Part shown: piece by piece, positions 20,209-59,791 of the stretch
How positions within the stretch are numbered: the stretch's first letter is position 1
Layout: every line of letters begins with the position of its first letter
Assembly (NCBI GenBank): GCA_963965975.1
Contig: OZ014415.1
Span: 6,329,001-6,393,000 of the forward strand
DNA from: Xestospongia bergquistia
Taxonomy: Eukaryota; Porifera; Demospongiae; Haplosclerida; Petrosiidae
DNA: 64,000 bases
Direction of reading: 5' to 3'
Program-made: the position numbers and the translations under genes
Notes under the pieces: generated by a model
What the model was told of the DNA's origin: nothing
Seen by the model: only the letters and a program-made list of their open reading frames with translations
Database searches by the model: none

Positions 20209-20658
20209 GATGTAGCTTCAGCTTTCAACTACCTTAATTTATGGAAACCTGACCCTATTATCCATCGAGATATTAGTAGCCCTAATGTCCTGTTAGAACC
20301 ATCAGTAGGTGATAGCTTTAAAGCTAAAGTAACTGATTATGGAGCAGCTAACCTTCAACAACAAGTCAAGACAGATATGCCAGGAAACCCAGCCTATGCT
20401 TCCCCAGAGTCTCGTTACCCAGATGATCACAGTCCAGCAATGGATGTCTACAGCTACTCTGTACTCCTGATGGAGATGATTCTTCATCGTCCATCTGCTA
20501 TGACAGTTCCTAAGAGAGAAGAACAAGCTAATCACATATCATGGCCTCCTATGTCCTCTCTCATTCAGAAGTGTCTCAACCAAGATTGTTATTGTCGTCC
20601 AACTATGAGCCAGATCTTAGATCAACTCAAACTAAAATTAAAATGTATAATAAACTAG
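20209..20658 (+). pseudogene. Kinase C-lobe fragment of the kelch-kinase family
   Basis: About 149 codons of the family kinase domain are open without a stop. The fragment begins abruptly at D-V-A-S-A-F-N-Y-L, just before the catalytic loop H-R-D-I-S-S-P-N. It runs through D-Y-G, S-P-E and the end of the domain, then a short changed tail. The kelch, coiled-coil and N-lobe parts are missing. The left junction is with the 3' flank of the MITOK-like gene, within cccttgaaga, a sequence also present at the MITOK remnant near 37390. It is therefore a breakpoint product of the local duplication. Confidence 0.85.
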
Positions 20659-21791
20659 AACTGAACTATGTGATATATTTTCTAGTTATTAGAACTTAAT
20701 ACTTTTGCCACTTTTTAGTTATGAGTTATACTGTTGTCTGCAGTTAATTTATTGTAATAACATGCAACTGTTACAACTGTGCTAGTTGGGTACTATTGTC
20801 TCTGACCATTGGTTTGGTCTCAGAACATCAACTCCCATTATGTTCACTATTGCAATATCAAGTATCAAAATGTCAACTTCCCAAAATGGCAGTTATAAAG
20901 AATTGCATTAGAACGCTAAAGTTGTACATATAACTTAAAAGTTCAACAACATACATTAAAGTGTTGATATAGTTGCTCAGAGATATTTTCCTAACCTCCA
21001 TCCATTCTTTCCTTAAATCTCTAAAATTTTTTGTCTATTCTACTAATTCTGTGGACACCATATTTGTGTTTACAAATCAAGGCCAATCTCAGAGTGTAGT
21101 TATGAACAGCTGTCAGTGAGTTTGGAGGTTTTATGTTTAGTAATGGCTGTGCATATAATTATAGTATTTTATACACCTAAGAAATTCTTAACAAGTAAAC
21201 TATTATTTAATTTTGATGAGTGGAAACATCTTATATCTAAAGCTTTATAATATGCACACACTCTCTCTCTTATCTGACACTTGTCATTGTCACCTGTCAT
21301 TTATAAGAGAGTGTATACACACAGTACTACTATAACACTTTATCTTATCAGTACATCAGTTATGATTGATAATCTAATTAGACAGTAGTGATTTATATGT
21401 ACCACTAATATAAACACATCAATGTAGTCACCTTCCATTATAGAGATAACATCCACTTATCTTTGTATATATCAACAAGATGGATGATCTAACTTACAAC
21501 ACCTAATCAAATTCTACAACAAACATTTGTAGTATACCTTATTTAATGTGTTAATATTAGGACATATATTGGAACAAAACATGTTTGTAAGATTATCATT
21601 TTAATATGAGTTTTCCCCAGCCCAATTGAATAACACAATAACCCAGTTGTTTTACTAATCCAGTGTTATTATATTTCTAGTTATATTATTTCTTCATTAC
21701 TGAAATCCTAAATCCACAATTTTGTATTACCATATATATATATATATATATATATATATCAATGAGCCCCACCTATAGCTATGAATTAATC
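20659..21791. other. Spacer upstream of kelch-kinase gene 1 (class A flank)
   Basis: This is family-conserved non-coding DNA: the 3' flank of the kinase exon, then the shared block with actctctctcttatctgaca. Next comes a short ATG frame at 21480 (M-D-D-L, interrupted here) that is repeated elsewhere. A TA microsatellite lies at 21731-21760. The class A block gagccccacctatagctatg lies directly before the ATG. Confidence 0.6.
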
Positions 21792-24700
21792 ATGTCTGGT
21801 TTCTTTAGAAGGATAAGAGATAGAGGTAAAACTACTAAAGTCCCTTCAGGTAAAGTTACTAAATGTCATGTACTATCTTAATTAGTATAGTAGTACAATA
21901 TATGTAGTCTCAGTAATCAGACCTTTTTTCTTTACAGCGAGTTTCTGACTGGTGAGACTAGTATAATGTATGGTGTAATGTATGGATTACATGTATCATA
22001 ATATGTAGTAGAAGATGAGGATTAGGAAGTATATGTCAAGTATATAATTAGTATAGTCTTTGTACAAGTCTTGTAGTAGATGTGATGACATATTGTAGGT
22101 ATATTACCTTATATTGTAACCTGATCTCAAGATATGGTACAAACTATTCTCTATAGGACACTACAAACTTGGTGAAAGAGATTGTCATCACACTCAAGTG
22201 ATTGGTGATGCTCTGTACTTGTGGGGTGGGGAGTCAGATGATTTACCTCATGTACATAATAGTGAGGAGAAAAAGAAAGTAACTTCACATGTCCAAGTAT
22301 TTGACATTACTACTGGTAAATGGAATAATCAGTCTACCAGAGGTAGTCCTCCACTCGGAGTGACTGGTTATTTCTGTACAACAATTGAGGACAAAATCTA
22401 TTATTTTGGTGGATACTGTGGACATGATGAATGCTTCCATAACAGTCTTCATGAGTTAAATATTTCTACTCTCACCTGGACCCAACTACAACCTACTACT
22501 GACAGCATAGCAGTGATGAAGAGAGGTTTTGGTGGAATGATGTCAAGTAAACTAGGAGGAATAGCAGGACAATATAGTCTTTTGATCGTTGGAGGTTATG
22601 GAGTCACAACCTCTAAATACCAACCACGAGCTCAATACTATCAGCTACCAAGCGGTAGAGTATGCACTAATGAACATAATCTATATGACCTGACAACAGG
22701 TATGAACATTAGTATATCATGTTATACTATCAGATATCACTCAGTACATGAGTACAATCTACACTACAGTATGATATAATTAATAGTGAGCATCAACAAC
22801 TATAAGAGTACATGGAAATATTTCCTACCATAAAAAAAGTGTGTGTCATGTGGTTATAATTAATGAGATCTCTCATTTTCATGCATTACATCGTGTTTAT
22901 GAATAAATCTTGGTTAAGGTTACCCCTAGTCCTATATTGACTAGATGTGTTTTGTTTTAGGTCAATGGATTATACCTGAGATCGTTGGACAATGTATGCC
23001 ACCTAATTCTGGCTTTGTTATGGAGAGTATTAATAATAGAAGAGCATTTATCTTTGGAGGTATAGTTGGAGACAAAGCATTTGATTATCTTTATTGTTTG
23101 GATATCATCAACTATACAGTTGTAAGTTATATTATCATTCATACACTGACTGATAACATATTATATAATGAGTGTTAGTTAACTTCATTTGTCTATCTAG
23201 CACTGGCAGACTATAGCTAAACCTGACCTAGTAGTACAATGGCCTGAGAAAAGGTGGGGACATGCTGCCAGTATTATCACTGGATTGATATCTTCTAAGC
23301 TTGTGATGACAGGTGGAATGGATAATGATTACAAAACATTAAAAGACTGCTGGATACTGGACATTAATGAGAAGTCGTGGACAAAGGTAAATCACGTACT
23401 GTCATTCTATTCAGTTTATGATAGCATACATTTTAAGGTATTCAGAGTAATAGTTGAGATTTATAAAACAAATTAGTTTAACAAAATATTGAATAAGCCA
23501 TCTTGTTCTAATTGGTTTTTAGTGTTTGTAGAATGATAAGTTTATGATTTTATCTGGGGCTAGGTACATATAATTCACAATAATGTTCTCTTATATACTT
23601 TAATTACAAGTAGAAATAGTTAAGTAGTGTATAGGTAGTACTTTAATTAACATAATGTTTGTTAAATTGATATGATCAAGTCATTAGTTATGTTTTTAAC
23701 AAGTACTATGTTACTTGGGAATATATAACAATAGTATAGAAGTGCTTTCAATTCTTACCATTATATTTCCTCCTGTAATTACTATAGTTTTTGAAACATT
23801 GCTTGTACATGTAATATTTCTACACACTACAGATTAATTTACCTGATTCTATCACTGAGAGAAGTGACCACTCTTTATCAACATTTGTTATGGGACAACA
23901 CAGTGTATGGTTGATAGCTGTAGGAGGAGGAGTAAATCCTGGCACACCTGTCACAGACCCCAATATAACAATATTAGCAGAAATAGGTAAGTAACACACA
24001 ATAATAAATGTCATATTGGTCTTTATGTATAAGTATTTGATACCATTTTTAGTTAGACAATTTAAGAACAATTTCCATTGATGTTAATGAGGTATTAAAT
24101 ATATATATCTACCAATAAATCAGATGTCTATATACATGAGGTATCTCATTGATACCTCATTTTCTCATTAACATCAAAAATAGATAATTTAATCAATTAG
24201 AGTTCTGCTGAGATATCACTCTTGGGTTGTACGTGGATATAACTGGGGTGGCTTAGGTTGTCTCAGGCTTGTCTCCAGACTGCAATGCCCAATGGTGGTG
24301 TGGCAAGAATACTAGGCTTGTTTTTGCCTTGTGGCTCTAAAATAGTTAGACAATGTGCTGAAGGTTTTTATATAAACTAGAGCACTCAGATTTTTCCCTT
24401 ATGCTCCGTTTCTTGTAGGAAGCTCCAACCCTCATTATCAACCTATTGATACATAAATATTCACTGACATAGCATATACAGTATAATACGATGATTTCAA
24501 TACATAATAACATACATGGTCTTTAATCTTTCATATATCACCATCTTTTACTAAAATAATTATATAATTGTTTAAGTAACAACTCCACATACTCACTGTT
24601 CACACATGTGTACTTTTCAATGCAACAATTCACTTTTTGTTTTAGTGCATGTACCATAATATGATCATATACTAATACTATGATAAATCTTGCTCACATT

Positions 24701-26404
24701 AACATATAATAAACCTTGTTAATCAAAATTTAGATTATTTTCACGTTGATTTTATTTGTTTTTAACTGTTGTTGCTGTGGGAGACTTTATAGTTGACATA
24801 TCACATGTAACATACTGACCACAACATTTTATTATTATAGTTATACAACAGGTGACCTTGTTATATACTACATAGTATAATCTTATTATTATCATATATG
24901 TTATACTAGTAGTACTACATTGTATACTGACATTAGTACTGTTGTGTTCTCTCATATAGTCCTCAATGGTGGTCAATGGTCAGTAGGGTTTGTACTAGAC
25001 TCTAATGATCTAACCTCAACTTATAACTACCAACAAAGAGTATTAAAACAACTCACAGAAGGAAGGAGAGAATGGATAGAACAAGAACATGGAAAAAAAC
25101 AAAATGTAAAACAAGAAGACAAGGAGTTTCAATCTATCATTGAGTCTCTTCAAGATGAGTTAAAGGAGACTAGAGACCATTATCACCAACAACTGCAGCA
25201 AGCTCAACATCAGTTACAACATTCTCAAGATGAGATACAACAGACAAAAGATCAATATCAACGACAACTACAACAGAAACAACAATGGGTACAAGAGTTA
25301 GAATATCAATTACAAGAATCTCAAGATGAGATACAAAAGACAAAAGATCAATATCAACAACAACTACAACAGAAACAACAATGGGTACAAGAATTAGAAC
25401 ATCAATTACAAGAATCTCAAGATGAGATACAACAGACAAAAGATCAATATCAACAACAACTACAACAGAAACAACAATGGGTACAACAATTAGAAGATGA
25501 GATACAAAAAACAAGACAAGCTAGAGATCAATATCAACAAAGTAATCTTAGTCTTCTACAGAAACTTCAGCAAACAGAACAAGCTCAGCAAGATATTGAG
25601 CAACAGTTAGAAAAGCTTTGTTCTCAACAGGATCAACCTCATTGGGTTGTGGATAGAGATGAGGTGATCATGACACAGGAGGTCTTAGGTAATGGATCAT
25701 ATGGCAAAGTTAAAGTGGCTGTCTTTCGAGGTCTGAGAGTAGCTGCCAAGTCTCTTCATGGTATCATCATCTCAGAGTACACCAGGGATCTCTTTTCCAG
25801 AGAAATGGACATTGCTTCTAGAGTACGTCATCCTAATCTTGTCCAATTTATTGGGGCTACTAGGGTAGGTATACCTATAATCCTCATGGAGATGATGGCC
25901 ACAAGTCTTTATAATGAGCTTCAGAAGAAGCCCTTGACACAATCCCAAATACTTGGTATCAGTTGTGATGTAGCTTCAGCTCTTAACTACCTCCATTTAT
26001 GGAAACCAGACCCTATTATCCATCGAGATATTAGTAGCCCTAATATCCTGTTAGAACCATCAGTAGGTGATAGCTTTAAAGCTAAAGTAACTGATTATGG
26101 AGCAGCTAACCTTCAACAACAAGCCAAGACAGATATGCCAGGAAACCCAGCCTATGCTTCCCCAGAGTCTCGTTACCCAGATGATCACAGTCCAGCAATG
26201 GATGTGTACAGCTACTCTGTCCTCCTGATGGAGATGATTCTTCATCATCCACCTGCTATGACAGTTCCTAAGAGAGAAGAGCAAGCTAGTCATGTATCGT
26301 GGCCTCCTATGTCCTCTCTCATTCAGAGATGTCTCAACCGAGATCATCATTGTCGTCCAACTATGACCCAGATCTTAGATCAACTCAAAGAACTAAATGT
26401 ATGA
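21792..26404 (+). CDS. Kelch / coiled-coil / TKL-like kinase, gene 1 (class A)
   Basis: Six exons: 21792-21849, 22157-22699, 22961-23121, 23201-23386, 23833-23986 and 24960-26404. All are in phase, giving 848 aa. A basic N-terminus (M-S-G-F-F-R-R) precedes six GG-centred kelch motifs (Y-L-W-G-G, Y-Y-F-G-G, L-I-V-G-G, F-I-F-G-G, V-M-T-G-G, I-A-V-G-G), consistent with a six-bladed propeller. Next is a glutamine-rich coiled coil with three tandem 32-residue units. The kinase starts near residue 605: glycine loop G-N-G-S-Y-G-K-V, K631 in V-A-A-K, E649 in R-E-M-D, H-R-D at 722-724 with Asn in S-S-P-N, D-Y-G at 746, and S-P-E in place of A-P-E. The H-P-N-L-V-Q-F-I-G-A signature points to the TKL group. 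There is no signal peptide or membrane segment, so it is probably cytosolic. Substrate unknown. Confidence 0.88.
21907..21959 (+). promoter_or_regulatory. Intron-1 hairpin with candidate 14-nt poison micro-exon (gene 1)
   Basis: A pyrimidine-rich acceptor (tttacag) is followed by 14 nt (21938-21951) and a gtgag donor. Spliced in after exon 1 it would read A-S-F and then TGA. The arms gtctcagtaatcagac and ttctgactggtgagac can pair imperfectly. The same cassette is present in all the paralogues. A regulatory role is inferred. Confidence 0.4.
24078..24177. repeat. Inverted-repeat element in kelch-kinase intron 5 (gene 1)
   Basis: About 100 bp ends in inverted copies of ttgatgttaatgag and contains a second nested pair around gaggtatc. 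It is repeated at 40614-40713 and, decayed, near 54073-54170. No open frame. It may be a small MITE or a folded sequence inherited with the intron. Confidence 0.6.
24180..24450 (+). repeat. Interspersed repeat containing ggtgtggcaacaagactagg
   Basis: A block of about 270 bp with the recurring words tgtctcaggcttgt, ggtgtggcaa and gttagacaatgtg. Other copies lie at about 27280-27640, 40715-40990, 43660-44000 and 54170-54410. It is non-coding. Some copies lie in introns and some lie 3' of the kinase genes, so it spread both by itself and with the gene duplications. Confidence 0.65.
25223..25510 (+). repeat. 96-bp coiled-coil coding repeat, three units (gene 1)
   Basis: Units start at 25223, 25319 and 25415, exactly 96 bases apart. 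Each encodes S-Q-D-E-I-Q-x-T-K-D-Q-Y and then Q-Q-K-Q-Q-W-V-Q-E-L. The unit number differs between paralogues. Confidence 0.9.
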
Positions 26405-28017: not shown

Positions 28018-28029
28018 CTCACCTACTGA

Positions 28030-30403: not shown

Positions 30404-33400
30404 ATGGCAGATTTGTTTAAAAGACTAACGGGTTTAGGTAGAGCTCCTGAAACCCCTTCAGGTATGTTAATGTTACTAGATATCAAGTACTATCTTAATT
30501 AGTAGTAGTACAATATCTACACTTGTAGGTATTATGTAGTCTCACTAACTGGACCCTCTTTCTCTACAGTGAGTGTCTAACTAGTGAGACTAGTATAATG
30601 TATGGACTACATGTATCATAATATATAGTAGAAGATGAGGTTAGGTTTGTGAAGTATATGTCAAGTATATAATTAGTATAGTCTTTGTACAAGTCTTGTA
30701 GTAGATGTGATGACATACTGTAGGTATATTACCTTATACTGTAACCTGATCTCAAGATATGGTACATATCATTCTCTATAGGACAATACAAACTTGATGG
30801 AAGAACCTTTCATCACACTCAAGTGATTGGTAATGCTATTTATTTGTGGGGTGGGAACTCAGATGATTTACCTTGTGTACATAATAGTGAGGCGAAAAGG
30901 AAAGTAACTTCATGTGTCCAAGTATTTGATATTACTACTGGTAAATGGAACAATCAGTCTACCAGAGGTAGTCCTCCACTAGGAGTGACTGGTTATTTCT
31001 GTACAACAGTTGATGACAAGATTTATTATTTTGGTGGATATTGTGGACATGATGAATGCTTCCATAACAGTCTTCATGAGTTAAATATTTCTACCCTCAC
31101 CTGGACCCAACTACAACCTACTGATGACAGGATTGTAGTGATGAGGAGATCTAGTGGTGGTATGATATCGAGTAAGGAAGAAGGACGACATTGTCTTTTG
31201 CTTATTGGAGGTTTTGGATCCCCACCTTCTATACATTTACCACATGTTCAATATTATCAGTTACCCAATGATAGAATATCTACTAATGAACAAAATATAT
31301 ATGACCTGACAACAGGTAAGAACATTAATATATCATATTATACACTGTAAAAATTAATTGGTTGATTTAACTATTATTTGGTTATACAGGTTGCAATTAC
31401 AAACATATTTTTGTTAGAAAAGTAAGCATAATACTGTTTTCATTACTAATGTACTACTGCTTATGTAGCTACATAACCAATAATTTCATAGTACATTAGT
31501 AATCAAAGTAGTATTAATGTTACTTTTTACATATGCAACCCACATAACCATGAATTGGTTAAATTAACTAATCAATTTTTACAGTGTATTATCAGATATC
31601 ACTTATTACAGTCAATGTTTACTATATGTAATTGTTATGTCATTTCATGCAGTAAGGTACAATGTATTGTGTCACAATTTTTATAAATAGTTCGCTGTTA
31701 CTAGATATTGACTACATGTGTTTTGTTTATTCTATTTTTAGGTCAATGGATCATACCTGAGATCACTGGACAATGTATGCCACCTAATGAGAATTTTGTT
31801 ATGGAAGCAGTAAACAATACAAGAGCTGTCATCTTTGGTGGTTTTGCTGAAGGCATACCATCTAATACACTCTATATACTGGATATCATCAATTATACAG
31901 TGGTAAGTTATATTATCATTCATACATTGACTGATAACATGTTATATAATGAGTATTAGTTGAGTCCATTTGTCTATCTAGCACTGGCAGACTATAGCTA
32001 AACCTGACCAAGTAGTACAGTGGCCAAAGGAAAGACAAGTTCATGCTGCCAGTATTATCACTGGATCAATATCACCTACACTAGTAATGATAGGTGGAGT
32101 GGATAATGATAGCAAAACAATAAAGGATTGTTGGATACTGGATATTAATGAGAAGTCATGGACAAAGGTATATCATGTACTATCATTATATTCAGTTTAT
32201 GATATAGCATATATCTTATTTAGATGTTTTTTTCAGAGCAATAGAAACAATTTGAGACTAAATATATAAAACACAATACAACTCACTTTAATACTTTTTA
32301 ATTTTTAAGTAGAAACACAAAATTCATATAATTTTACTATCTAATGTTACTGTTATAGCATATTGCAGTAATAATGTAAGAATAGGTAGCAATTTTTTAA
32401 AGTGGATAGTGACAGACTTGACCTTATCAAAATAACAAATATCATGTTAATATAAGTACTACCTATACTACATGGGATCTTTTACTGTATGTCCTCATTG
32501 TTTGATCAATTGATGTCTCTACATACTACAGATTGATCTACCTGACTCTGTCACTGAGAGAGAAGGCCACTCTCTATCAACATTTATCATGGGACCACAT
32601 TGTGTATGGTTAATAGTTGTAGGTGGTAAAGTAAGGATCAATAAAGTAGCTGACTCCAATATAACAATGTTGATAGAATTAAGTAAGTCATTTCACACAC
32701 AAAATAAATGTCACATCGACAATTAATGAATATAGTTTAAGGTGGTAATTAGAAATCATTAAGACATGTGGGGTTTTTACTCTCATGCATCTCTCACCCT
32801 GTTCATAGCATATATACTACAGATGTAGTTGTATTATAAGTAACTTTATTCTGTACTATATATGATATACTAGTAGTACTACATTGTATACTGACATTAG
32901 TACTATTGTTTCTCTAATATAGTTCTCCTCAATGATGGTCAATGGTCAGTACCAGATTCTAATAACCTAACCTCAATTGATGACTACCAACAAAGAGTAC
33001 AAAGCAAATTAACAGAAGGAAAGGGAGAATGGATCGAACAAGGAATGAAACAACGTGTAAAACAAGAAGTCAGGGAGCTTCAATCTATCAATGAGTCTCT
33101 TCCAAATGAGTTAAAAGAAACTAGAAGTCATTATCACCAACAGCTACAGCAAGCTCAACAGCAGTTACAGGATTGTCAACAACAGTTACAAAAGTCTCAA
33201 GATGAGGTACAACAGAAAAAACATCAATATCAACGACAGCTACAACAGAAACAACAACGGATACGAGAGTTAGAACATCTGTTACGACAATCTCAAGATG
33301 AGATACAAGAGACAAGACAAGCTAGAGATCAATATCAACAAAGTAATCTTAGTCTTCTACAACGAATTCAGCAAACAGAGCAAACTCAACAAGATATTGA

Positions 33401-34205
33401 ACAACAGTTAGAACAGCTTCGTTCTCAACAGGAACAACCTCATTGGGTTGTGGGTAGAGAGGAGGTAATTATGACACAAGAAGTCTTAGGTAATGGGGCA
33501 TATGGCAAAGTTAAAGTGGCTGTCTTTCGAGGTCTGAGAGTAGCTGCCAAGACTCTTCATGGTATCATCATTTCTGACTACACCAGGGATCTCTTCTCCA
33601 GGGAAATGGACATTGCTTCTAGAGTACGTCATCCTAATCTTGTCCAATTTATTGGAGCTACTATAGTGGGTACGCCTATCATTCTTACAGAAATCATGAC
33701 CACAAGTCTTCATAATAAACTTCAGAAGAAGGCTTTGACAAAATCCCAAATACTTGGTATCAGTTGTGATGTAGCTTCAGCTCTTAACTACCTCCATTTA
33801 TGGAAACCAGACCCTATTATCCATCGAGATATTAGTAGCCCTAATGTCCTATTAGAACCATCAGTAGGTGATAGCTTTAAAGCTAAAGTAGCTGATTATG
33901 GAGCAGCTAATCTTCAACAACAAGCCAAGACAGATATGCCAGGAAATCCAGCCTATGCTTCCCCAGAGTCTCGCTATCCAGATGATCACAGTCCAGCAAT
34001 GGATGTCTATAGCTACTCTATACTCTTGATGGAAATGATTCTTCATCGTCCACCTGCTAGGACAGATCCAAAGAGAAAAGAACAAGCTAGTCATGTATCA
34101 TGGCCTCCTATGTCCTCTCTCATTCAGAGATGTCTCAACCAAGATCATCATTGTCGTCCAACTATGACCCAGATCTTAGATCAACTCAAAGAACTAAATG
34201 TATAA
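30404..34205 (+). CDS. Kelch / coiled-coil / TKL-like kinase, gene 2 (class B)
   Basis: Exons are 30404-30461, 30782-31315, 31742-31902, 31982-32167, 32532-32682 and 32923-34205, in phase, for 790 aa. The first exon is of the second type (M-A-D-L-F-K-R-L, then A-P-E-T-P-S). The six kelch GG motifs are kept. In the third the class B form L-L-L-I-G-G replaces the class A form. Exon 6 lacks four residues after W-S-V, and the coiled coil has only one 32-residue unit, so this is the shortest intact gene. The kinase has G-N-G-A-Y-G-K-V, V-A-A-K-T-L, H-R-D-I-S-S-P-N, D-Y-G and S-P-E. Intron 2 carries a MITE. Substrate and pathway are unknown. It is probably soluble. Confidence 0.87.
30539..30590 (+). 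promoter_or_regulatory. Intron-1 hairpin with candidate poison micro-exon (gene 2)
   Basis: Candidate micro-exon at 30570-30583 between tttctctacag and gtgagac. After exon 1 it would read V-S-V then TAA. The flanking arms GTCTCACTAACTGGAC and GTCTAACTAGTGAGAC can pair. Confidence 0.4.
31341..31588. mobile_element. MITE in intron 2 of kelch-kinase gene 2
   Basis: The ends are CACTGTAAAAATT and its complement AATTTTTACAGTG, flanked by a TA on each side. Imperfect inverted homology continues inwards. Paralogues 4 and 6 have the same intron without it (catattatattatcag-like). Removing the element plus one TA from gene 2 restores that sequence, which shows insertion at a TA dinucleotide as for Tc1/mariner-type elements. 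It has no coding capacity. A related element is at 45488-45744. Confidence 0.88.
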
Positions 34206-35509: not shown

Positions 35510-36855
35510 CTATATAGCTATATCACATGGGAATTTCATCATTCGTCCATTGTTGAAGAAACCAGATATTTGGCAGTGAGAGTGCCACATACACCTTCCT
35601 GGTTTGTCACCAGGATAACCATTTATATTAATAATGTACTTTGGGTAGCGCCATCCAAACACCATCCAGTTGCCATAATAAGCATATGTGATTATTATTG
35701 CAATATCATAGTGTTGATAACGGTAACGAATGGTAACGACACCATCCATAATAGGTGACAGCTCGGTGCCAGTTGTAGTAATATCCAGTGTTTGGGTTCC
35801 AAGGATAGGTGACTTTTACGTGTTAGGTGGAATAACTCCAATTTTTCGTTTCTTAATATTATGTGTTGCTTCAAGAACATCTTCCAAGAGATCAGTGTCT
35901 TCCTCACTAAGATCTAAGATTAGATCTAAGATTGCCAGGTATAGTATAAACTTCCTCCTCAGCATTGCCAGGAACTTCCTCTTCAGCATTGTCACCAGCA
36001 ACACTTGGAACGTCCTCCTCAGTGTTGCCAGGAATACTAGGAACCTGAGAATAAACGTGAGGATCATCACCTTTTTTCTTCTGTTTGCATAGCCATGTTG
36101 TCTCCTCTTCAGCATTGTCACCAGGAACACTTGGAACGTCCTCCTCAGCATTGCCAGGAATACTAGGAACACTTGGAACATCCTCCTCAGTGTTGCCAGG
36201 AATACTAGAAACCTGAGAATAAATGTGAGGATGAGAAGGGTCTTCAGAAACGTGAGGATGAGAAGGGTCATCACCTTTTTCTTCTGTTGCATAGCCATGT
36301 TGTCTTCCTCTTCAGCATTGTCACCAAGAACACTTGGAACGTCCTCCTCAACATTGTTAGGAATACTGGGAATGGGAACGTCTTCCTCAGCATTGCCAGG
36401 AATACTAGGAACTCTTGGAACATCCTCAGCATTGCCAGGAATACTAGGAACCTGAGAATAAACATGAGGTTGAGAAGGGTCTTCAGAAACGTGAGGACGT
36501 CCTCCTCAGCATTGCCAGGAATACTAGGAACCTGAGAATAGACATGAGGTTGAGAAGGGTCTTCAGAAACATGATGATGAGAATGATCATCACCCTTTCT
36601 TCTGTTTGCATAGCCATGTTGTCCATCACTTCCTTTAAAGTACCCATTGTTTCCCATCCATCGCTAGTAACTGATACCCAACATTGAGCTTGGAAATCCA
36701 CAGCTGTGCCTTCGTTTGGGTTATTTTTATTGAATTTTACAACCTTATGAGTGATATCTTATGTTAGAAAAGGTAACCTTTCATCCTTTAGGTGCATCAT
36801 CTGCAGCTAGAGCTAGCATACAAAAGCATGCAATGAAAATGATAGCACTTTGCAT
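35510..36855 (-). pseudogene. Decayed secreted-protein gene with acidic repeats (copy 1)
   Basis: The frame starts at 36855 with a signal peptide (M-Q-S-A-I-I-F-I-A-C-F and L-A-L-A-A). An in-frame TGA replaces the Gln of K-G-Q-K-V-T-F, and a second break follows. The conserved C-W-V-S-V-T-S-D-G-W-E-T block comes next, then frame changes. The middle is a repeat region coding for V-P-S-I-P-G-N-A-E-E-D in one frame. After R-K-I-G-V-I-P-P-N-T and a TAA, the last part is open again to 35510. It is rich in tyrosine (Y-R-Y-Q-H-Y-D, then W-M-V-F-G-W-R-Y-P-K-Y) and has three cysteines near the end. I do not recognise the family. The paralogue at 61959-62619 keeps the signal-peptide part open. Confidence 0.6.
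35940..36560 (-). repeat. Minisatellite coding for acidic P-G-N-A-E-E units
   Basis: About ten imperfect units of 27-36 bases (plus strand cctcctcagcattgccagga) with larger order repeats containing ttcagaaacgtgagg and cttctgtttgcatagccatg. Indels not divisible by three break the frame several times. Confidence 0.8.
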
Positions 36856-45744: not shown

Positions 45745-45772
45745 TGAGTGATTAATGTTTAGTCCTTCTTAC

Positions 45773-47333: not shown

Positions 47334-50300
47334 ATGGCTAATTTTTTAAAAAGACTAGCAGGTATAGGTAGGACTCCTGAAACCCCTTCAGGTATGTAAA
47401 TGTTACTAGATATCATGTACTACCTTAATTAGTAGTAGTACAATATCTACACTTGTAGATATTATGTAGTCTCACTAACTAGACCCTCTTTCTCTGCAGT
47501 GAGTGTCTAACTAGTGAGACTAGTATAATGTATGGACTACATGTATCATAATATATAGTAGAAGATGAGGGTTAGGTTTGTGAAGTATATGTCAAGTATA
47601 TAATTAGTATAGTCTTTGTACAAGTCTTGTAGTAGATGTGATGACATACTGTAGGTATATTACCTTATACTGTAACCTGATCTCAAGATATGGTACATAT
47701 CATTCTCTACAGGACAATACAAACTTGATGTAAGAGTCTTTCATCACACTCAAGTGATTGGTAATGCTCTGTACTTGTGGGGTGGGGAGTCAGATGATTT
47801 GCCTGATGTACATAATAGTGAGGAGAAGAAGAGAGTAACTTCACATATCCAAGTATTTGATATTACTACTGGTAAATGGAATAATCAGTCTACAAGAGGT
47901 ACTCCTCCACTAGGAGTAGATGGCTATTTATGTACAACAGTCGATGACAAGATTTATTATTTCGGCGGATATTGTGGACATGATGATTGCTTCCATAACA
48001 GTCTCCATGAGTTTAATATTTCTACCCTCACCTGGATCCAACTACAACCTACTGATGACAGAATAGCAGTGATGAGGAGATCTAGTGGTGGTATGATATC
48101 AAGTAAGGAAGCAGGACAACATTGTCTTCTGCTTATTGGCGGAATTGGACCCCCACCCTTTATGCGTTTACCACAAGCTCAATATTGTCACTTATTATCA
48201 GTTATTAGTAGAGTATCTACTAATGAACATAATATATATGACCTGACAACAGGTAATAACATTAATATATCATATTATAATATCAGATATCACTTATTAC
48301 AGTCAATGTTACTACATGTAATTATTGTATCATTTCATACATTTAGGTGTCATGTTTTTTAGTAAAATAATTCACTATTACCAGATATTGGCTGGATGTA
48401 TTTCGTTTGTTTTCCTTTAGGTCAATGGATCATACCTGATATTATTGGACAGTGTATGCCACCTAATGAAAATTTTGTTATGGAAGCAGTAAACAATACA
48501 AGAGCAATCATCTTTGGTGGTTGTGTTAAAGGCACAGATTATAATGCACTCTATATACTGGATATCATCAACCATACAGTGGTAAGTTATATTATCATTC
48601 ATACACTGACTGATAACATGTTATATAATGAGTATTAGTTGAGTTCATTTGTCTATCTAGCACTGGCAGACTATAGATAAACCTGACCTAGAAGTACAAT
48701 GGCCAAAGGAAAGAGGAAACCATGCTTCAAGTATTATCACTGGATCAATATCACCTATGCTTGTGATGATAGGTGGACTAGATGAGACAAACAAAGCAAT
48801 AAATGACTGTTGGATATTGGATATTAATGAGAAGTCATGGACAAAGGTATATTATGTACTATCATTATATTCAGTTTATGATATAGCATATATCTTATGT
48901 AGATGTTTTTCAGAGTAATAGTTTGAGAATTTAAAAAAAAATTGAGACTAAATATGTAAATTACAATAAGACTCATACATAATTCATATATTTTTATTAT
49001 CTAATATTATTTTCTATTATAACATATTCCAGTAATAATAAGTGTAAGATTTCATATGTAGTAATTGTTAAAGTGGGTAACCAATACTTAAGCTTATCAT
49101 GTTAACAAAATATCATGTTAACGTAAGTACTATCTACACTACCTGGGATCTTTTACTATATGTCCTTGTTATTTTATCAATTGGTGTCATGTCATTACTG
49201 CAGATTAATCTACCTGACTCTGTCACTGAGAGATATGGTCACTCTCTATCAACGTTTATCATGGGACCACATTGTGTGTGGTTAATAGTTGTAGGAGGTC
49301 AAGTAAAGATCGATAAAGTAGCCGTCACAGATGATAATATAACAATGTTGATAGAATTAGGTAAGTATATAATTACACAGACAAAACACATCAACATTAC
49401 TAACATTGTGTATATATATTTATTGACTACATGTGTAGTATTGTTTATATGTTTTAGTTATTATTACATGTACATCATGTAAGTATAGGTAATGTTACAT
49501 GTAGTATATAATACATGTACTATTATATAACAGGTGACCTTGTTATGTACTACATAGTATAGTCTTATTACTATCATATATGTTATACTACTAGTACTGC
49601 ATTGTATACTGACATTAGTACTGTTGTGTTCTCTCATATAGTCCTCAATGATGATCAATGGTCAGTAGGGTTTGTACTAGACTCTAATGATCTGACCTCA
49701 ACTGATGACTACCAACAAAGAGTACTAAAACGACTTACAGAAGGAAGGAGAGAATGGATAGAGGAAGGAGAGAAACAAAATGTAAAACAAGAAAACAAGG
49801 AGTTTCAATCTATCATTGAGTCTCTTCAAGATGAGTTAAAGGAGACTAGAGACCATTATCACAAACAACTACAGCAAAGACAGCAAGCTCAACATCAGTT
49901 ACAACAGTCTCAAGATGAGATACAACAGACAAAAGATCAATATCAACGACAACTACAACAGAAACAACAATGGGTACAAGAATTAGAACATCAATTACAA
50001 GAATCTCAAGATGAGATACAACAGACGAAAGATCAATATCAACAACAACTACAACAGAAACAACAATGGGTACAAGAATTAGAACATCAATTACAAGAAT
50101 CTCAAGATGAGATACAAAAGACAAGACAATCTCGAGATCAATATCAACAAAGTAATCTTAGTCTTCTACAGAAACTTCAGCAAACAGAACAAGCTCAGCA
50201 AGATGTTGAGCAACAGTTAGAAAAGCTTTGTTCTCAACAGGTTCAACCTCATTGGGTTGTGGGTAGAGAGGAGGTGATCATGACACAGGAGGCCTTAGGT

Positions 50301-51014
50301 AAAGGATCATATGGCAAAGTTAAAGTGGCTGTCTTTCGAGGTCTAAGAGTAGCTGCCAAGACTCTTCACAAAATCATCATTGCAGAATACACCAGGGATC
50401 TCTTTTCCAGAGAAATGGACATTGCTTCTAAAGTGCGTCATCCTAATCTTGTTCAATTTATTGGGGCTACTACAGTGGGCACACCCATCATCCTCATGGA
50501 GCTCGTGGCCACAAGTCTTTACAATGAGCTCCAGAAGAAAACCATGACACAATCTCAAATACTTTGTATAAGTTGTGATGTTGCTTCAGCTCTTAACTAC
50601 CTCCATTTATGGAAACCAGACCCTATTATCCATCGAGATATTAGTAGCCCTAATGTCCTGTTAGAACCATCAGTAGGTGATAGCTTTAAAGCTAAAGTAA
50701 CTGATTATGGAGCAGCTAACCTTCAACAACTAGCCAAGACAGATATGCCAGGAAACCCAGCCTATGCTTCCCCAGAGTCTCGCTACCCAGATGATCACAG
50801 TCCAGCAATGGATGTCTACAGCTACTCTGTCCTCCTGATGGAGATGATTCTGTGTTGTCCACCTGCTATGACTGTTGCAAAGAGAGAAGAACAAGCTAGT
50901 CATGTATCATGGCCTCCTATGTCCTCTCTCATTCAGAGATGTCTCAACCGAGATCGTCATTGTCGTCCAACTATGACCCAGATCTTAGATCAACTCAAAG
51001 AACTAAATGTATAA
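47334..51014 (+). CDS. Kelch / coiled-coil / TKL-like kinase, gene 4 (class B)
   Basis: Exons are 47334-47391, 47713-48252, 48421-48581, 48661-48846, 49204-49360 and 49642-51014, for 824 aa. The start (M-A-N-F-L-K-R-L, A-G-I-G-R-T-P-E-T-P-S) and kelch exons are of class B, with the fourth GG motif in G-G-C-V-K. The last exon, however, is closer to class A: two full 32-residue coiled-coil units, G-K-G-S-Y-G-K-V and Q-S-R-D-Q-Y. The gene is therefore a mosaic. N-lobe differences from all others include T-L-H-K-I-I-I-A-E-Y and M-E-L-V-A-T. H-R-D, Asn, D-Y-G and S-P-E are kept. Intron 5 is short and lacks the inverted-repeat element of class A. Probably cytosolic, role unknown. Confidence 0.87.
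47469..47520 (+). promoter_or_regulatory. Intron-1 hairpin with candidate poison micro-exon (gene 4)
   Basis: Micro-exon candidate 47500-47513 (V-S-V, stop) after tttctctgcag. Arms are identical to those of gene 3. Confidence 0.4.
49908..50125 (+). repeat. 96-bp coiled-coil coding repeat, two units plus part (gene 4)
   Basis: Units start at 49908, 50004 and 50100 with exact 96-base spacing. Confidence 0.9.
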
Positions 51015-52098: not shown

Positions 52099-53980
52099 CA
52101 TGTCTGATTAGGCTAAGAGGTAGAGGTAGAACTACTAAAGTTCCTTCAGGTAATGTTACTAGATATCATGTATTACCATATTTATAGTAGTAGTACAGTA
52201 TGTGTAGTCTCACTAACCAGACTTTTTTCTTTACAGCAACTTTCTGACTAGTTAGACTAGTATGATGTATGGACTACATGTATCGTAATATATAGTAGAA
52301 GATGAGGGTTAGGTTTGTAAAGTATATATCAAGCATATAATTAGTATAGCCTTTGTACAAGTTTTGTAGTAGATGTGATCACATACTGTAGGTATATTAC
52401 CTTATACTGTAACCCGATCTCAAGATATGGTACATATCATTCTCTATAGGACAATACAAACTTGATGAAAGAGATTTTCATCACACTCAAGTGATTGGTG
52501 ATGCACCGTACTTGTGGGGTGGGTACTAAAATGATTTACCTCATCTATATAACAGTGAGTAGGAGAGTAACTTCACAGGTCCAAGTATTTGATATACTAC
52601 TGGTAAATGAATAACCTGTCTATGAGAGGTGGTCCTCCACTAAGAGTGACTAATTATTACTGAACAACAATCAAGGACCAAATTTATTATTTGGATGGGT
52701 GTTGTGGACATGATGATTGCTTCCATAACAGTCTTCACGAGTTAAATATTTCTACCTTCACTGGGACCCAACTACAATCTACCAATGACAACATAACAGT
52801 GATGAAGTGAAACTTTGGTTGTATGATCTCAAGTGAACTAGATGGGCAATATTGTCTTTTAATTATTGGAGGCTATGGTGTCTCAACCTATGCACAACTG
52901 CCACAAACCTAATACATTCAGTCACCCATTGGCAGATTATGCAGTAAAGAACATAATCTATATGACCTGACAACAGAAAAAAATATCATATTATACATTC
53001 GCATAACATTCATGACAATCTACACTACAGTATGATATTATAGTGAGCATCATCAATTATAAACTAAGTACATGGAAATATTTTCTACATGTATCATGAA
53101 GATTTGCATGTTATAGTTATAATTCAGTAATGCCATGTTTTATGAATAATACTCAGTCATTGTTACCAGATAGCTTTAAATATATGTGTTTTGTTTTACG
53201 TCAATGGATAATACCTGAGATCACCGGACAGCGTATGCCATCTAATTGTCTCTTTGGTATGGAGAGTATTAATAATATAAGAACAGTCATCTTTGGTGCA
53301 TGTGGTGTAGGTATAGTTGAAGGAAAAGCATCTAATACTTTATATTAATAATAATGATTACAAAACAATGAAGGATTGCTGGATACTAGATGATAGCATA
53401 CATCTTATGATATTTGGAATAATTTCTTGAGATTTACAAAATAAATATAATTTGACAAATATTGAATAATGCCATTATTTTGTACTAATTTGTTTTAGTG
53501 TTTGTGGAATGATAAGCCTATGATTTTGTTTGAGGCTAAATACAAGTAATTCACAACAAAGCTCTCTTATAGATTTTAATTCCAAGTAGAAATAATTAAA
53601 GCAATGTATGTAGTGCTTTTATTAAGATAATATTTGTTAAATTGAAACGATCAAGTCATTAGACAGCAATACTTTTAACAAGTGCTGTACTACTTGAGAG
53701 TGTGTTATAATAATAGTATAGAAATGCTTTCAATCTTTACTGTTATATTTCTTCATGTAAATATTATAGTTTATCAAATGAATCATGTATATGTAATATC
53801 TCTACATACTTGAGATTGATCTACCTGATTCTGTCACTGAGAGATGTGACCACTCTATAGCAACATTTGTTATGGGACAACACTGTGTATGGTTGATAGC
53901 TGTAAAGGGAGGAGTAAATCCTGGCACACCTGTCACAGACCCCAACATAACAAATTATTAACAATATTGGCAGAAATAGG
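52099..53980 (+). pseudogene. Kelch-kinase pseudogene (class A), kinase exon missing
   Basis: Exon 1 begins ATG TCT GAT and stops at TAG after a deletion. Exon 2 (from about 52450) keeps recognisable kelch sequence (H-H-T-Q-V-I-G-D, Y-L-W-G-G shortened) but has several stops and frameshifts. Exon 3 (about 53201-53340) is open but runs by a deletion straight into the middle of exon 4 sequence. Exon 5 (about 53816-53978) has lost its AG acceptor (now gag after act) and carries an insertion. No coiled coil or kinase follows, so the last exon was lost. Intron 1 still has the hairpin and micro-exon cassette (52237-52250). Confidence 0.88.
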
Positions 53981-55134
53981 TAAATAACACACAATAATAA
54001 ATGTTATTTTGGACTTTGTGTACAAGTTATGTCATAGCATTATTAGATAAACAATTAATGAATAATTTCCTTTGATGTTAATGAGATATCTAATATATAT
54101 CTACCAATACATGTATATAAACATAAGGTATCTCATAGATACCTGATATTATCATTAAAATTAAAGAAAATTGGTCAGGCTTCTGCTGAGTCGTCACTCT
54201 TTGGTTGAACTTGTAGTATAACTGGGCAGGCTTGAGTTCATCTCAGGCTTGTCCTCAGACTACCATGCCCCATGAAGGTGTAGCATCAAAACTAGACTTG
54301 TGTTGGCTTATGGCTCTAAATTGGTTAGACAATACATTGAAGGTTTCTACAGGGCTTTGTCCTCGTGTGTTATTTCCTATAAGAATATTGTCGACCAATT
54401 GCTATATTATTACTTAATAGAAAAATCTTTGATTAAATTCTAAAGCTAAATCTTTGCTTGCATTAACATACAGATGGTATTCAAAACTAGTGTGTTTTAG
54501 CTAAAGCTCACTTAATCAACCAATTACATCCATGCCCTATGAGTAAAAGACAATCTGACGTAGAGTATGGTATAAGAGGAAATTTATAGAAAGCTTACAA
54601 TTGTTAATACTTTCTATTGTAATCTTCATTACAGATATATGTACGTATATATATATATATATATATAAATGACTCATTTGCAATAATGGACCACTTCTGT
54701 CAAAACATTTGTGAATTGATTTGTGAAAAGGGACCATTGTTATAACACCTCAAAAAACAGTTTTGTATACATAGAGTTACCATGAATAGCTATACATATA
54801 TAGCAACTGTATTTATGCAAAACTGTTTTTAAGATGTTTAATAGTGGTCCCCTTTAACGGATTAGGTTTGCCAGAGGTCTCTTATTGTGAATTAGGTCAC
54901 ACACAAACACACACTCATATATCAAGATCAATAATCTAATGACACTACATAAGATAGACTATGACTACATATAACTCTGTCTATAAAAACTATGATATAC
55001 ATCATTTCTAAAATTGTTCTAATATAACATATTGCATGATTGATATATTTGTAGTGTCACTAACCTTTCCTTATATTATACTGTTGATCTATTAATCTAA
55101 CATCATTACATTCCATCTATATTGTTTGTCCATT
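53981..55134. other. Spacer between the kelch-kinase pseudogene and gene 6
   Basis: A decayed inverted-repeat element at about 54073-54170 is followed by a ggtgtagcatcaaaactaga repeat. A TA microsatellite lies at 54645-54667. Then comes DNA without family matches. The immediate upstream of gene 6 is unlike class A or B. Confidence 0.45.
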
Positions 55135-58100
55135 ATGTTACTTCAAGCTCCACCTTTGAGATCTATTGGCCTGGATTTTACTTTACAGCAACAGATGGCT
55201 ACTAAACGGGTTAAAGTCTCTTCAGGTAATGTTACTAGATATCTTATACTAGTAGTAGTACAATATCTACAGTTGTAGGTATTATGTAGTCTCACTAACT
55301 AGACCATCTTTCTCTACAGTGAGTGTCTAACTAGTGAGACTAGTATAATGTATGGACTACATGTATCATAATATATAGTAGAAGATGAGGGTTAGGTTTG
55401 TGAAGTATATGTCAAGTATATAATTAGTATAGTCTTTGTACAAGTCTTGTAGTAGATGTGATAACATACTGTAGGTATATTACTTTATATTGTAACCTGA
55501 TCTCAAGATATGGCACATATCATTCTCTATAGGACAATACAGACTTGGTGTAAGAGTTGAACATAGCACTCAATTGATAGGAGATAACCTTTACCTGTGG
55601 GGTGGGAATGATGTACCCTTAGTGCACAATAATGAAAAGAAGAGAAAACTAACATCACAGATTGTAATATTCAACATTACCTCTGGTATATGGAACTCTA
55701 GACCAACCAGTGGCAATCCCCCTCTAGGTGTGAAAGGGTACTTATGTACTTCAATAAATTACAAAATTTACTATTTCGGTGGTTGGTGTCAACACAATAG
55801 CTGCTATCATAACAGTCTCAATGAATTAGATATTTCTACCCTCACCTGGACCCAACTACAACCTACTGATGACAGTATAACAGTGATGAAGAGAGGCTAT
55901 GGTGGTATTATGTCAAGTGAACAAACAGGACATCATTGTCTTTTACTTATTGGAGGTATCGGACCCCCACCCTCTATCCAATTACCACAAGCTCAATATT
56001 ATCAGTTACCAAATGGCAAAGTGCGTACTAATGAACAAAATATGTATGACCTGACAACAGGTAATAACATTAATATATCATATTATATTATCAGATATCA
56101 CTTATTACAGTCAATGTCACTACATATAATTATTATATGATATATTATTATATTTTCTCTGTACTAGTTATATCAAGTATTAACATTATATAACTGTAGT
56201 ACATATAAATTAAATAATAATATATTAGTTATTCTATTATCATAACATTATATTGTAGTTTATAATAACAGTAATTATTAAAAGTAATTGCAAAGACACT
56301 GAGTTTATAGTGAAACTAGAGCTTCAAAGGAGTAGTATCTATGGACAACTAGAGCTATAGAATGCTAGGCATAGAAGCAAGCACTAGTTCATAAAATTTA
56401 TTGATTATTATATGTATCAGTGGTTATAGAATGTGGTTTAACTTCATTTGTTGTTCTTGAAAGTTTCATACAACATTATATTAAATTTGCTAAGTAAACA
56501 TATATAATATACAATTATATCTATAGACTCCATGTGGTATAAAACAAATTGTAGGACTGCCTGACATGTACTACTAGGTAGTAATTACATTTTACTGATC
56601 ATTGTGTCGTGATGGATTATCTAACTACTATTATGATACAAGTATAATGATGAGTGTGTTCTCCTTTTAGGTCAATGGATCATACCTGAGATTATTGGAC
56701 AATGTATGCCATCTAATGCTAGCTTTGTTATGGAAGCAGTAAACAATACAAGAGCAATCATCTTTGGTGGTGGAGTTGAAGGCAGAGCATCTAATACACT
56801 CTATATATTGGATATCATCAACCATACAGTGGTAAGTTATATTATCATTCATACACTGACTGATAACATGCTATATAATGAGTGTTAGTTGAGTTCATTT
56901 GTCTATCTAGCACTGGCAGACTATAGCTAAACCTGACCTAGTAGTACAGTGGCCAGAGGAAAGAGGAAACCATGCTGCCAGTATTATCACTGGACCAATA
57001 TCACCTACACTAGTAATAATAGGTGGAATGCATAAGGCAAACAAAACAATAAAGGACTGTTGGATACTGGATATTAATAAGAAGTCATGGACAAAGGTAT
57101 GTCATTGATAATATATCATATTACCTCTAATTTATTATACAATGATAGTTACTAAGTTAGTTCATATAACTGTCCATATATTTAGAAGTATAATAAATCA
57201 TATTCATTTACTACTGATATACTATAATATGTTGTTATCTTTATTGTTATCATAATTATTACCATTGTAAAAAATTAAATAGAGATTAAAAAATATACTA
57301 AGTGACTTTAGGCATTGTGGACTTATGTAGGTATGTTCACTTGAAACATAGTTATAACCTAGTGTGTCTCAGTGGTCACTAGGACTTGTGTTTCTATTTA
57401 AATGCTATAGCATGTGCATCTAAATTGTTTTGGTACAATTTAGCTTATCATTGCACTGTTATTCCATGGACCATAAAAATGTCTTTAACAGAGCAAACAT
57501 AGAACATACTAGAGTAAGATACTATATAAAAAGTAATATAAATGAAAATAATATTAAAATTATATTACTTTGTGAGTTAATATTTGTCATGATTTATATC
57601 TCTTTGTAACAAGTTACCAAGTAATTGTCATTTTTGATATCATACCAATAACTATTACTGTAATATAGCTCTCCAATCTGTATACACATATAAATGATGT
57701 AATAATATTTATGTCTCCATATACTACAGATTAATCTACCTGACTCCATCACTGAGAGATGTGTCCACTCTCTATCAACATTTATCATGGGACCACATTG
57801 TGTGTGGTTAATAGTTGTAGGAGGAGCACTACAGTTTCAAGGTGCAGATGTCACAGACCCCAATATAACAATGTTAATTGAACTAGGTAAGTAAGTCATT
57901 ACATACACAATATAGATATTACATTGACTACATGTAACATAATAAACAATGGATATTGTATAGGTTATTAAGGCTGTGTGGTAGAGGTTATTAACATATG
58001 GTAATATATTTAAATTATGACACTCTCCTTTGAATTTTACCTCATAGTACTGTTAGTAGGTGTGGTCAAGGTTGACTTAATATTTATATTATAAGAATTA

Positions 58101-59791
58101 TATACATGTATAGTTCTGTTGAATGTATACGAATAGAATGTATTACCTAATGACCACATATATTTAATCCCGATAAGTTATAGATATTTGATATAGTAAG
58201 TATTTACTTAGTGATAACCACTACTATTTCCTTTAGTATATGTACATTCAGTCCAGTCTATATTAAACTACTAACATTATGTGTATACATTATTGACTAC
58301 ATGTGTAGTATTGTTTATATGTTTTAGTTATTATTACATGTACATCATGTAAGTATAGGTAATGTTACATGTAGTGTATAATACATGTACTGTTATATAA
58401 CAGGTGACCTTGTTATGTACTACATAGTATAATCTTATTACTATCATATATGTTATACTAGTAGTACTACATTGTATACTGATATTAGTACTGTTGTGTT
58501 CTCTCATATAGTCCTCAATGATGGTCAATGGTCAGTAGGGTTTGTACTAGACTCTAATGACCTGACCTCAACTGATAAGTACCAACAAAGAGTACTAAAA
58601 CAACTTACAGAAGGAAGGAGAGACTGTCGCTTAGAACAAGGAGGGAAACAAAGTGTAAAACAGGAATACAAGGAGCTTCAATCTATCATTCAGTCTCTCA
58701 AAGATGAGCTAAAAGAGACCAGAGATCAATATAACCAACAACTAAAGCAAACACAGCAAGACCATCAATTGTTATTGCAGTGTCAAGATGAGATACAACA
58801 GACAAATGATTTGTATCAACAACAACTACAACAGCAACAACAAAGGATACAAGAGTTAGAACATCAGTTACAACTGTCTCAAAATGAGATACAAGAGACA
58901 AGACAAGCTAGAGATCAATATCAACAAAGTAATCTTAGTCTACTACAACGACTTCAGCAAACAGAAGAAATGCGACAAGATATTGAACAACAGTTAGAAC
59001 AGCTTTGTTCTCAACAGGAACAACCTCATTGGTTAGTGGGTAGAGAGGAGGTGATTATGACACAGGAAGTCTTAGGTAATGGGGCATATGGTAAAGTTAA
59101 AGTGGCTATCTTTCGAGGTCTGAGAGTAGCTGCCAAGTCTCTTCATGGTATCATCATCTCAGACTATACCAGGGATCTGTTCTCCAGGGAAATGGAGATT
59201 GCTTCTAGAGTATGTCATCCTAATCTTGTCCAATTTATTGGGGCTACTAGAGTGGGTACACCCATTATCCTCACAGAAATCATGACCACAAGTCTTTATA
59301 ATGAGCTCCAGAAGAAGGCTTTGACACAATCCCAAATACTGGGTATAAGTTGTGATGTAGCTTCAGCTCTTAATTACCTCCATTTATGGAAACCAGACCC
59401 TATTATCCATCGAGATATTAGTAGCCCTAATGTCCTGTTAGAACCATCAGTAGGTGATAGCTTTAAAGCTAAAGTAGCTGATTATGGAGCAGCTAACCTT
59501 CAACAACAAGCCAAGACAGATATGCCAGGAAACCCAGCCTATGCTTCCCCAGAGTCTCGTTACCCAGATGATCACAGTCCAGCAATGGATGTCTACAGCT
59601 ACTCTGTCCTCCTGATAGAGATGATCCTTCATCGTCCACCTGCTATGACAGTTCCTAAGAGAGAGGAACAAGCTAGTCTTGTATCATGGCCTCTTATGTC
59701 CTCTCTTATCCACAATTGTCTCAACCGAGATCGTCATTGTCGTCTAACTATGAGCCAGATCTTAGATCAACTCAAACAACTAAAGATATAA
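55135..59791 (+). CDS. Kelch / coiled-coil / TKL-like kinase, gene 6 (class C)
   Basis: Exons are 55135-55225, 55533-56060, 56671-56831, 56911-57096, 57730-57886 and 58512-59791, for 800 aa. The first exon differs from the others. An in-frame ATG gives a 30-residue start (M-L-L-Q-A-P-P-L-R-S), with an alternative ATG at 55195 (M-A-T-K-R-V-K-V-S-S). The first kelch blades are the most divergent of the array (N-D-V-P-L-V-H-N-N, G-G-W-C-Q-H-N-S-C). Later blades are of class B type. The coiled coil has a single diverged unit. The kinase is nearest gene 2 (G-N-G-A-Y-G-K-V, T-E-I-M-T-T-S) with R-V-C-H-P-N in place of R-V-R-H-P-N. H-R-D, Asn, D-Y-G and S-P-E are kept. Introns 2 and 4 are longer than in the paralogues. 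Probably cytosolic. Confidence 0.86.
55289..55340 (+). promoter_or_regulatory. Intron-1 hairpin with candidate poison micro-exon (gene 6)
   Basis: Micro-exon candidate 55320-55333 (V-S-V, stop) between tttctctacag and gtgagac, with the same arms as gene 3. It is conserved although the adjoining exon 1 is unrelated. Confidence 0.42.

Follow-up and report, generated by a model that had tools for sequence, protein, structure and literature searches.

What kind of proteins does a tandem array of genes encode when each gene joins a kelch part, through a coiled coil, to a TKL-like kinase, and does such an array stand alone in its genome? We studied one such array in the sponge Xestospongia bergquistia, within a stretch of 64,000 nucleotides (C5:6,329,001-6,393,000; this whole stretch is called the window below, and C1, C5, C11 and the like denote contigs), and searched the genome assembly of 146 Mb in 21 contigs for related sequences. 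The window holds only a small share of a larger kelch system, in which the same kelch module is followed by one of two alternative tails, either the kinase or a series of Death, ZU5 and CARD-like domains. A previous sequence-only reading, which also compared the array with sensor or immune gene families, described the array rightly and understated it. The kelch module with its two tails looks like an undescribed class of diversifying internal sensors, and we put at about 0.57 the probability that these genes are germline-diversified sensors, probably cytosolic, with interchangeable kinase or Death-ZU5-CARD-like outputs and an immune or allorecognition role that we infer.

The window contains five intact genes, which we call A1, B1, A2, B2 and C, together with one pseudogene and one kinase fragment. 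The gene models, whose splice anchors were placed by hand, bear out this count and the exon structure claimed earlier: all five genes have six exons, GT..AG at each of the 25 introns, an exon 3 of 161 nucleotides and an exon 4 of 186 nucleotides, and they encode 780-857 residues with no internal stop. The predicted proteins comprise a kelch part of 363-376 residues, then 161-225 residues of coiled coil and a 256-residue kinase. Pfam scans of three kinase exons, three kelch exons and the kinase fragment recovered kelch and protein kinase domains; residues 1-378 of B1 match Kelch_KLHDC2_KLHL20_DRC7 (E 4e-41), with three to four separate kelch stretches recognised by several models, a number of repeats that points to a beta-propeller. 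Neither BTB nor BACK was found in the Pfam scans of B1 residues 1-378 and of a protein with the other tail (locus L013, modelled with exon 1 left out). Given this result and the size of exon 1, which codes for 10-19 residues in the window models and up to 30 in gene C, membership in the KLHL family (BTB-BACK-kelch) was rejected. The kinase retains its G-rich loop, VAAK lysine, HRD and DYG motifs in all five genes, and the closest solved kinases in the PDB are CTR1 (E 7e-24), TAK1, MLK and TNNI3K, with IRAK4 and LRRK2 further down; by these relatives and motifs it is most probably a TKL member. Pfam, the gene models and the kinase comparison agree with the order of kelch, coiled coil and TKL-like kinase that had been read from the letters alone.

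Genome-wide, at least 159 related kelch exon matches form two clades, of 68 and 91; these counts refer to exon matches, some of them broken, and are lower bounds. With the kelch exon 2 of B1 as the query, the best 150 of 219 candidates were scored and all 150 matched, at least 68 of them at 55% identity or more, on C5, C1, C3, C4 and at C11:2.79 Mb. With a kelch query from C11, for which the best 150 of 213 candidates were scored, at least 91 matches reached 66% or more; C11 carries 84 of these, and a gap divides the 91 from the 68-copy group. Further genome searches scored the best 149 of 395 and the best 150 of 294 candidates. A separate search for Peptidase_C1 gave 76 matches; among five small loci taken from it (L076-L080), the three with a legible active site have the usual Cys, and no silicatein turned up in the minority of matches that were read. 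A sample locus on C11 (L069) has kelch, coiled coil and kinase in the same order as in the window, and the array on C5 extends about 40 kb beyond the window.

As the tail of each of the 68 core kelch exons we took whichever known element came first after it, on its own strand and no more than 11 kb away, a criterion of proximity only. By this rule 36 are followed by Death/ZU5, 22 by the kinase, 10 by neither and none by both; one of the ten, at C5:6,942,098, has a diverged kinase (72% at the DNA level). Kinase-type and Death-type copies are interleaved on one strand of C1 at 5.21-5.30 Mb. Since no kelch copy has both tails before the next kelch (0/68), one gene alternatively spliced to the two tails was rejected. 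Death was absent at E up to 0.1 from the three scanned exon 6 frames (A1, B1 and C) and from the B1 propeller; with no Death in the kinase chain and no kelch copy followed by both tails, RIPK/IRAK membership was also rejected, save for RIPK4-like members, which lack Death. Two kelch-Death/ZU5 loci occur as mirrored copies of equal score (C5:6787078-6797489 and C5:7315568-7325979), and C11 has similar mirrored pairs, for example at 1450342 and 1935204; the mirrored copies on both contigs could be either real inverted duplications or assembly artefacts.

In the exons of the second tail, Pfam recognises Death (E 3e-8 and 1e-7) and ZU5, the latter above the cut-off in loci L012 and L016 (E 6e-6 and 2e-5) and below it in L010, L028 and two spliced models; the ZU5 half of a FIIND (ZU5-UPA) thus appears to be present. 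End-to-end models were tried for five tail genes (L010, L011, L013, L018 and L021) and obtained, with exon 1 left out, for L013 and L011, which have 11 exons and encode 992 and 973 residues with no internal stop; phase-compatible splice pairs were required, so that phase was imposed and openness was the test. The order is kelch, a short coiled coil, Death, ZU5, three exons and a CARD-like last exon. The three exons between ZU5 and the last exon gave no Pfam match, UPA included, in the modelled tail proteins and are UPA-like by position only. For one of the two types of last exon, the predicted structure has a predicted local distance difference test (pLDDT) score of 80.9, and CARDs make up most of the 50 structural matches listed for it. 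The ZU5 profile had no match in the PDB. NACHT and LRR were absent from the Pfam scan of the modelled L013 protein, and on this basis NLR membership of the tail genes was rejected.

Two features of the tail are conserved. All 18 Death/ZU5-type copies of exon 6 that were found finish in a similar coiled-coil end (mostly ...ES-Q/E-Q/E-G) and then G|GTA in the same phase; a nineteenth exon 6 that was found, in L022, is kinase-like and has neither that end nor that donor. All 15 ZU5 exons of kelch genes that were aligned have Phe-Ser at the ZU5 end, with Lys, Gln or Glu as the preceding residue. CARD8 and NLRP1 are cut at SF/S and PIDD at HF/S, at the end of ZU5, according to the available part of PMC3210808. 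After Phe-Ser, the ZU5 exons of L010, L011, L013, L015, L018 and L021 have a long hydrophobic stretch rich in Gly, Ala and Val, which could be a membrane-active segment, and those of L012, L016, L019 and L023 have a charged one. At C3:3497000-3504800 (L070), two Death-ZU5 copies occur with another short coiled-coil exon ahead of them and no recognised kelch; a CARD-like exon lies within reach of one copy, and His-Phe-Cys replaces Phe-Ser in both. Such copies are possible donors of the tail.

Where does the part shared by the two kinds of gene end? Gene C and 17 Death/ZU5 loci from C5 are mostly 80-95% alike at the DNA level (one piece 77%), in a similarity that starts at about 55,210-55,274, where exon 1 ends or a little beyond, crosses the introns with gaps and enters exon 6. 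Two loci on other contigs (L027 and L028) are 73-87% like gene C from exon 2 onward. The similarity stops sharply, 15-38 codons into exon 6 and at or shortly past the close of the propeller: in 11 loci it ends at 58,557-58,566 and in 8 at 58,616-58,626, which defines a zone at 58557..58626 on the plus strand of gene C. That the end points form two clusters suggests that joining happened at least twice.

The tails are scattered over the kelch tree. A first maximum likelihood tree contained 60 core kelch exons (the 68 minus 7 without sequence and 1 that was short) and three outgroups from C11. On its 60 rows the kinase and Death/ZU5 labels need 14 changes, and when each label is set against all other rows, starred branches force at least 8. 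Shuffled labels gave values as low in 34 of 500 trials for the kinase and 47 of 500 for Death/ZU5; that so few did so indicates some clustering, as near-copies would give. For a stricter tree of 45 rows we dropped sequences with stops, those shorter than 170 residues, exact duplicates, two near-duplicates and those with no tail label, and relabelled C5:6942098 as kinase. This tree needs 12 changes, 5 of them forced, against a mean of 14.2 for shuffled labels, 78 of 500 shuffles being as low for the kinase label, so that tail type is hardly tied to kelch descent. A single kinase clade is rejected on the 45-row tree (p 4e-62; groups were defined by tail before the tree was made). Sequence comparison gives good support to the architecture, to the part that is shared and to the scatter of tails over propellers. 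Neither Death nor ZU5 is among the matches listed for C11 at 0.07-2.3 Mb (one of the two listings being the best 150 of 294), which suggests that the kinase tail is the older.

All features of the array lie on the plus strand, in positions of the window. It opens with the kinase fragment, the 3' half of an exon 6 (20188..20658; a 156-residue open reading frame, identified also by Pfam and comparison). Gene A1 follows (21792..26404, 848 residues; exons 21792-21849, 22157-22699, 22961-23121, 23201-23386, 23833-23986 and 24960-26404; GT-AG, open and supported by Pfam), then B1 (30404..34205, 790 residues; exons 30404-30461, 30782-31315, 31742-31902, 31982-32167, 32532-32682 and 32923-34205; model and Pfam), A2 (38316..42750, 857 residues; modelled exons 38316-38373, 38692-39234, 39499-39659, 39739-39924, 40369-40522 and 41279-42750) and B2 (47334..51014, 824 residues; modelled exons 47334-47391, 47713-48252, 48421-48581, 48661-48846, 49204-49360 and 49642-51014). 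The pseudogene psiA (about 52099..54349) retains exon 1 and fragments of the later kelch exons; its exon 2 is interrupted by stops and shifts of frame, and exon 6 is missing. Gene C has two candidate ATGs in the same frame, 55,135, as noted earlier, and 55,195, which our model uses (55195..59791, 780 residues; exons 55195-55225, 55533-56060, 56671-56831, 56911-57096, 57730-57886 and 58512-59791; model and Pfam). In the coiled coil, 96-nucleotide tandem repeats were found by repeat analysis in A1 (25206..25495, 3.0 copies), A2 (41531..41860, 3.4 copies) and B2 (49891..50124, 2.4 copies).

The sequence-only reading had proposed classes A, B and C that alternate along the DNA, with an A-B pair as the duplicating unit. 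The classes stand in the 5' part of the genes, where A and B are clearly separated in the upstream flank, exon 1, exon 3 and exon 5: the upstream 400 nucleotides are 76% identical between A1 and A2, 81% between B1 and B2 and 45-49% between A and B, and exon 3 is 94%, 89% and 73-75% identical, respectively. They fail in the kinase exon, which is 91-98% alike in all ten pairs regardless of class, and in the 3' flank (A1-B1 95%, A1-A2 96%, B2 to A1, B1 or A2 83-85%, C 50-55%). The A-B pair fits the 5' halves as a unit of duplication, and the identities of the kinase exon and 3' flank rule it out for entire genes; since these two regions follow a pattern other than the classes, the window genes are mosaics. 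Synonymous distance between unlike classes is 0.315-0.566 in kelch and 0.146-0.217 in the kinase for the same eight pairs. Outside the window, exon 2 is nearest B2 and exons 3-5 are nearest C in six loci (L010, L014, L018, L021, L024 and L025, compared with A2, B2 and C as references; L024 and L025 are close duplicates of L014 and L021). Upstream of the kelch exons of these six loci with B-type exon 2 lie pieces of open frame that resemble the end of what we take to be a hAT-type transposase.

Of 300 pairs from 25 genes, which are not independent, 257 have an intron 3 (79 nucleotides in the window genes) that is better conserved than either flanking exon, and 16 have one that is less well conserved than either; within the window it is 92-97.5% alike, against 73-75% when exon 3 of A is compared with that of B. 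For intron 1, gapped alignments give 81-98% similarity, and introns 2, 4 and 5 differ in length and content. Homogenised introns combined with selection for different exons would give such a pattern of quiet introns and differing exons.

How might such proteins work? We propose that the N-terminal kelch beta-propeller, from exon 1 to the start of exon 6, would be the recognition part; a ligand on the propeller would lead to clustering, with the coiled coil bringing chains together. One output would be the TKL protein kinase, with its catalytic motifs intact, and the other the series of Death, ZU5, further exons and CARD-like domain, which may work like NLRP1, CARD8 or PIDD: the conserved Phe-Ser may be a site of self-cleavage by the ZU5, and Death and CARD parts, once released or clustered, would recruit adaptors and caspases. 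The genome has 99 Peptidase_C14 matches; caspase-family matches lie at C11 356833 and 376159, inside the kelch-kinase cluster of that contig. Ectopic recombination within the shared part could re-pair propellers with tails and mix propeller exons. The immune or sensor reading gains indirect support because the same kelch module is joined elsewhere to Death-ZU5-CARD-like tails. A bolder version, to which we give slightly less than even odds, holds that these genes encode innate receptors of a new animal class, whose diversified recognition part is a kelch propeller and not LRR or NACHT; this propeller would be mosaic in its exons and repeatedly re-paired with a TKL kinase or an inflammasome-like Death-ZU5-CARD output.

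Several points limit the reading of the family as diversified sensors. Our confidence is slightly lower because phase was imposed on the tail gene models and because Phe-Ser is not universal. Single-exon trees cannot separate tail exchange from conversion of exon 2. The ratio of nonsynonymous to synonymous change (dN/dS) is below 1 in all ten window pairs, in kelch and kinase alike, so that positive selection lacks demonstration.

Among the other explanations, allorecognition in place of defence against microbes is one of the two that survive best, and we still consider it unlikely: divergent propellers would report contact with self or non-self, and the kinase or Death/CARD tails would drive acceptance or rejection. 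Contact recognition usually needs a surface receptor, and inspection of the five window proteins by eye, with no predictor run, revealed neither a signal peptide nor a membrane segment. A large, clustered, mosaic and divergent family suits either role, and PMC8195603 makes mention of allo-incompatibility in colonial animals, sponges among them. Comparably doubtful is the explanation that the family has no special role: gene conversion would hold the tandem copies similar to one another, and recombination would change their tails as a neutral side effect. The homogenised introns 1 and 3, the existence of broken copies and the low dN/dS agree with it; five of the six window genes that retain kelch exons are open, however, the catalytic motifs are intact, a conserved coiled-coil end and splice donor mark the tail join, and the intron that separates exons 3 and 4 has diverged less than they have, whereas purifying selection alone would yield the opposite. 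It is improbable that these loci hold a truncated kelch gene followed by an independent Death/ZU5 gene, with no kelch-Death protein: Death-ZU5 genes with no kelch-search match nearby do exist on C3, yet most kelch exons of the Death/ZU5 loci are open, exon 6 has its own end and donor in every Death/ZU5-type copy found, the order of kelch and then Death/ZU5 recurs in 36 loci, and two genes (L013 and L011) are open across 11 exons. Kelch propellers commonly bind protein partners, which would suit a cytoskeletal or substrate adaptor steering the kinase to house-keeping partners, a role made just as improbable by a family of this size and by an alternative Death/CARD-like tail, both unexpected for a house-keeping adaptor.

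If the sensor reading is true, these genes would provide a new sensor scaffold for animal innate immunity, kinase and Death/CARD outputs that can be exchanged behind one recognition module, and a natural experiment in the recombinational re-pairing of receptor and output. It would also make the non-NLR sensors of early animals a directly testable question, since sequence delimits the sensor, its two outputs and the zone where they join.

Known systems share parts of this organisation. NLRP1, CARD8 and PIDD1 also have a ZU5 with Phe-Ser at its C-terminal end, death-fold domains and the order of ZU5, further exons and CARD-like domain; here, in contrast, kelch is N-terminal, Death precedes ZU5, UPA is unrecognised by Pfam, Lys, Gln or Glu stands before Phe, and cleavage is predicted only. 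PMC8195603 describes the TRADD-N expansion of Amphimedon, 357 proteins that are likewise specific to a sponge lineage; they carry death-fold modules in many architectures, some of which include protein kinases. Unlike here, the Death-like/TRADD-N unit stands at their N-terminus, ahead of a variable C-terminal part; the word kelch occurs 0 times in the main text of that paper, and TRADD-N was not searched for in this genome. The NLRs of the sponge Dysidea avara (PMC12909245, as far as its accessible text goes) are also a large family whose members have Death, CARD or neither, built in contrast on a NACHT-LRR core, and its main text has 0 occurrences of kelch. The TKL kinases CTR1, TAK1, MLK, TNNI3K, IRAK4 and LRRK2 are the closest solved kinases by sequence, and differ from those of the window in that here a coiled coil joins the kinase to a kelch propeller, with no Death beside the kinase.

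Kelch together with kinase may not be unique to this genome, given that a legend in PMC6993872 lists a kelch motif among the domains of choanoflagellate and filasterean kinase proteins set beside Ephs; those are tyrosine kinases, and the available part of the article describes no family expansion or tail exchange. The GPCR-TKL/K and GPCR-TK proteins of choanoflagellates and sponges (PMC12716839, available part) similarly join a sensor to a TKL or tyrosine kinase, with domain swapping discussed, and unlike ours are membrane receptors and not kelch proteins. For each of two sponges, Pita et al. 2018 (PMC6208332) list a single 'kelch motif containing' gene as down-regulated after microbial products; these genes may or may not belong to the present family. 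We found no report of animal kelch-kinase or kelch-Death/ZU5 fusions in a literature search judged by title and abstract opening, with most subscription journals outside its coverage.

The coiled coil and kinase also occur behind other N-terminal parts and look like a mobile output unit. They end a 1871-residue frame (L071, C8:7284000-7289700) in which LRR, Roc, COR, kinase and a WD40 propeller of LRRK2 type lie ahead, and a second frame like it, of 1865 residues, was seen at C8:7293791. At C13:735300-737600 (L072) the unit stands behind weak PARP14-type KH matches (E 3e-5, under the cut-off). At C2:9718900-9720700 (L073) it follows an N-terminal part without identity, for which a comparison with the PDB gave nothing convincing (best E 0.078), and four kinase frames of 544-545 residues lie on C2 at 9.72-9.79 Mb.

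The rest of the window contains other features. Six similar-looking frames of multi-pass membrane proteins, five of them on the minus strand, occupy 1709-13909; the two that were scanned matched no Pfam family above the cut-off. A single open frame at 19055-20128, with a long coiled coil and hydrophobic segments, had no Pfam match above the cut-off and presumably resembles CCDC51/MITOK. Between B1 and A2, the segment at 35700-36660 is of low complexity and contains tandem repeats of 42 and 80 nucleotides.

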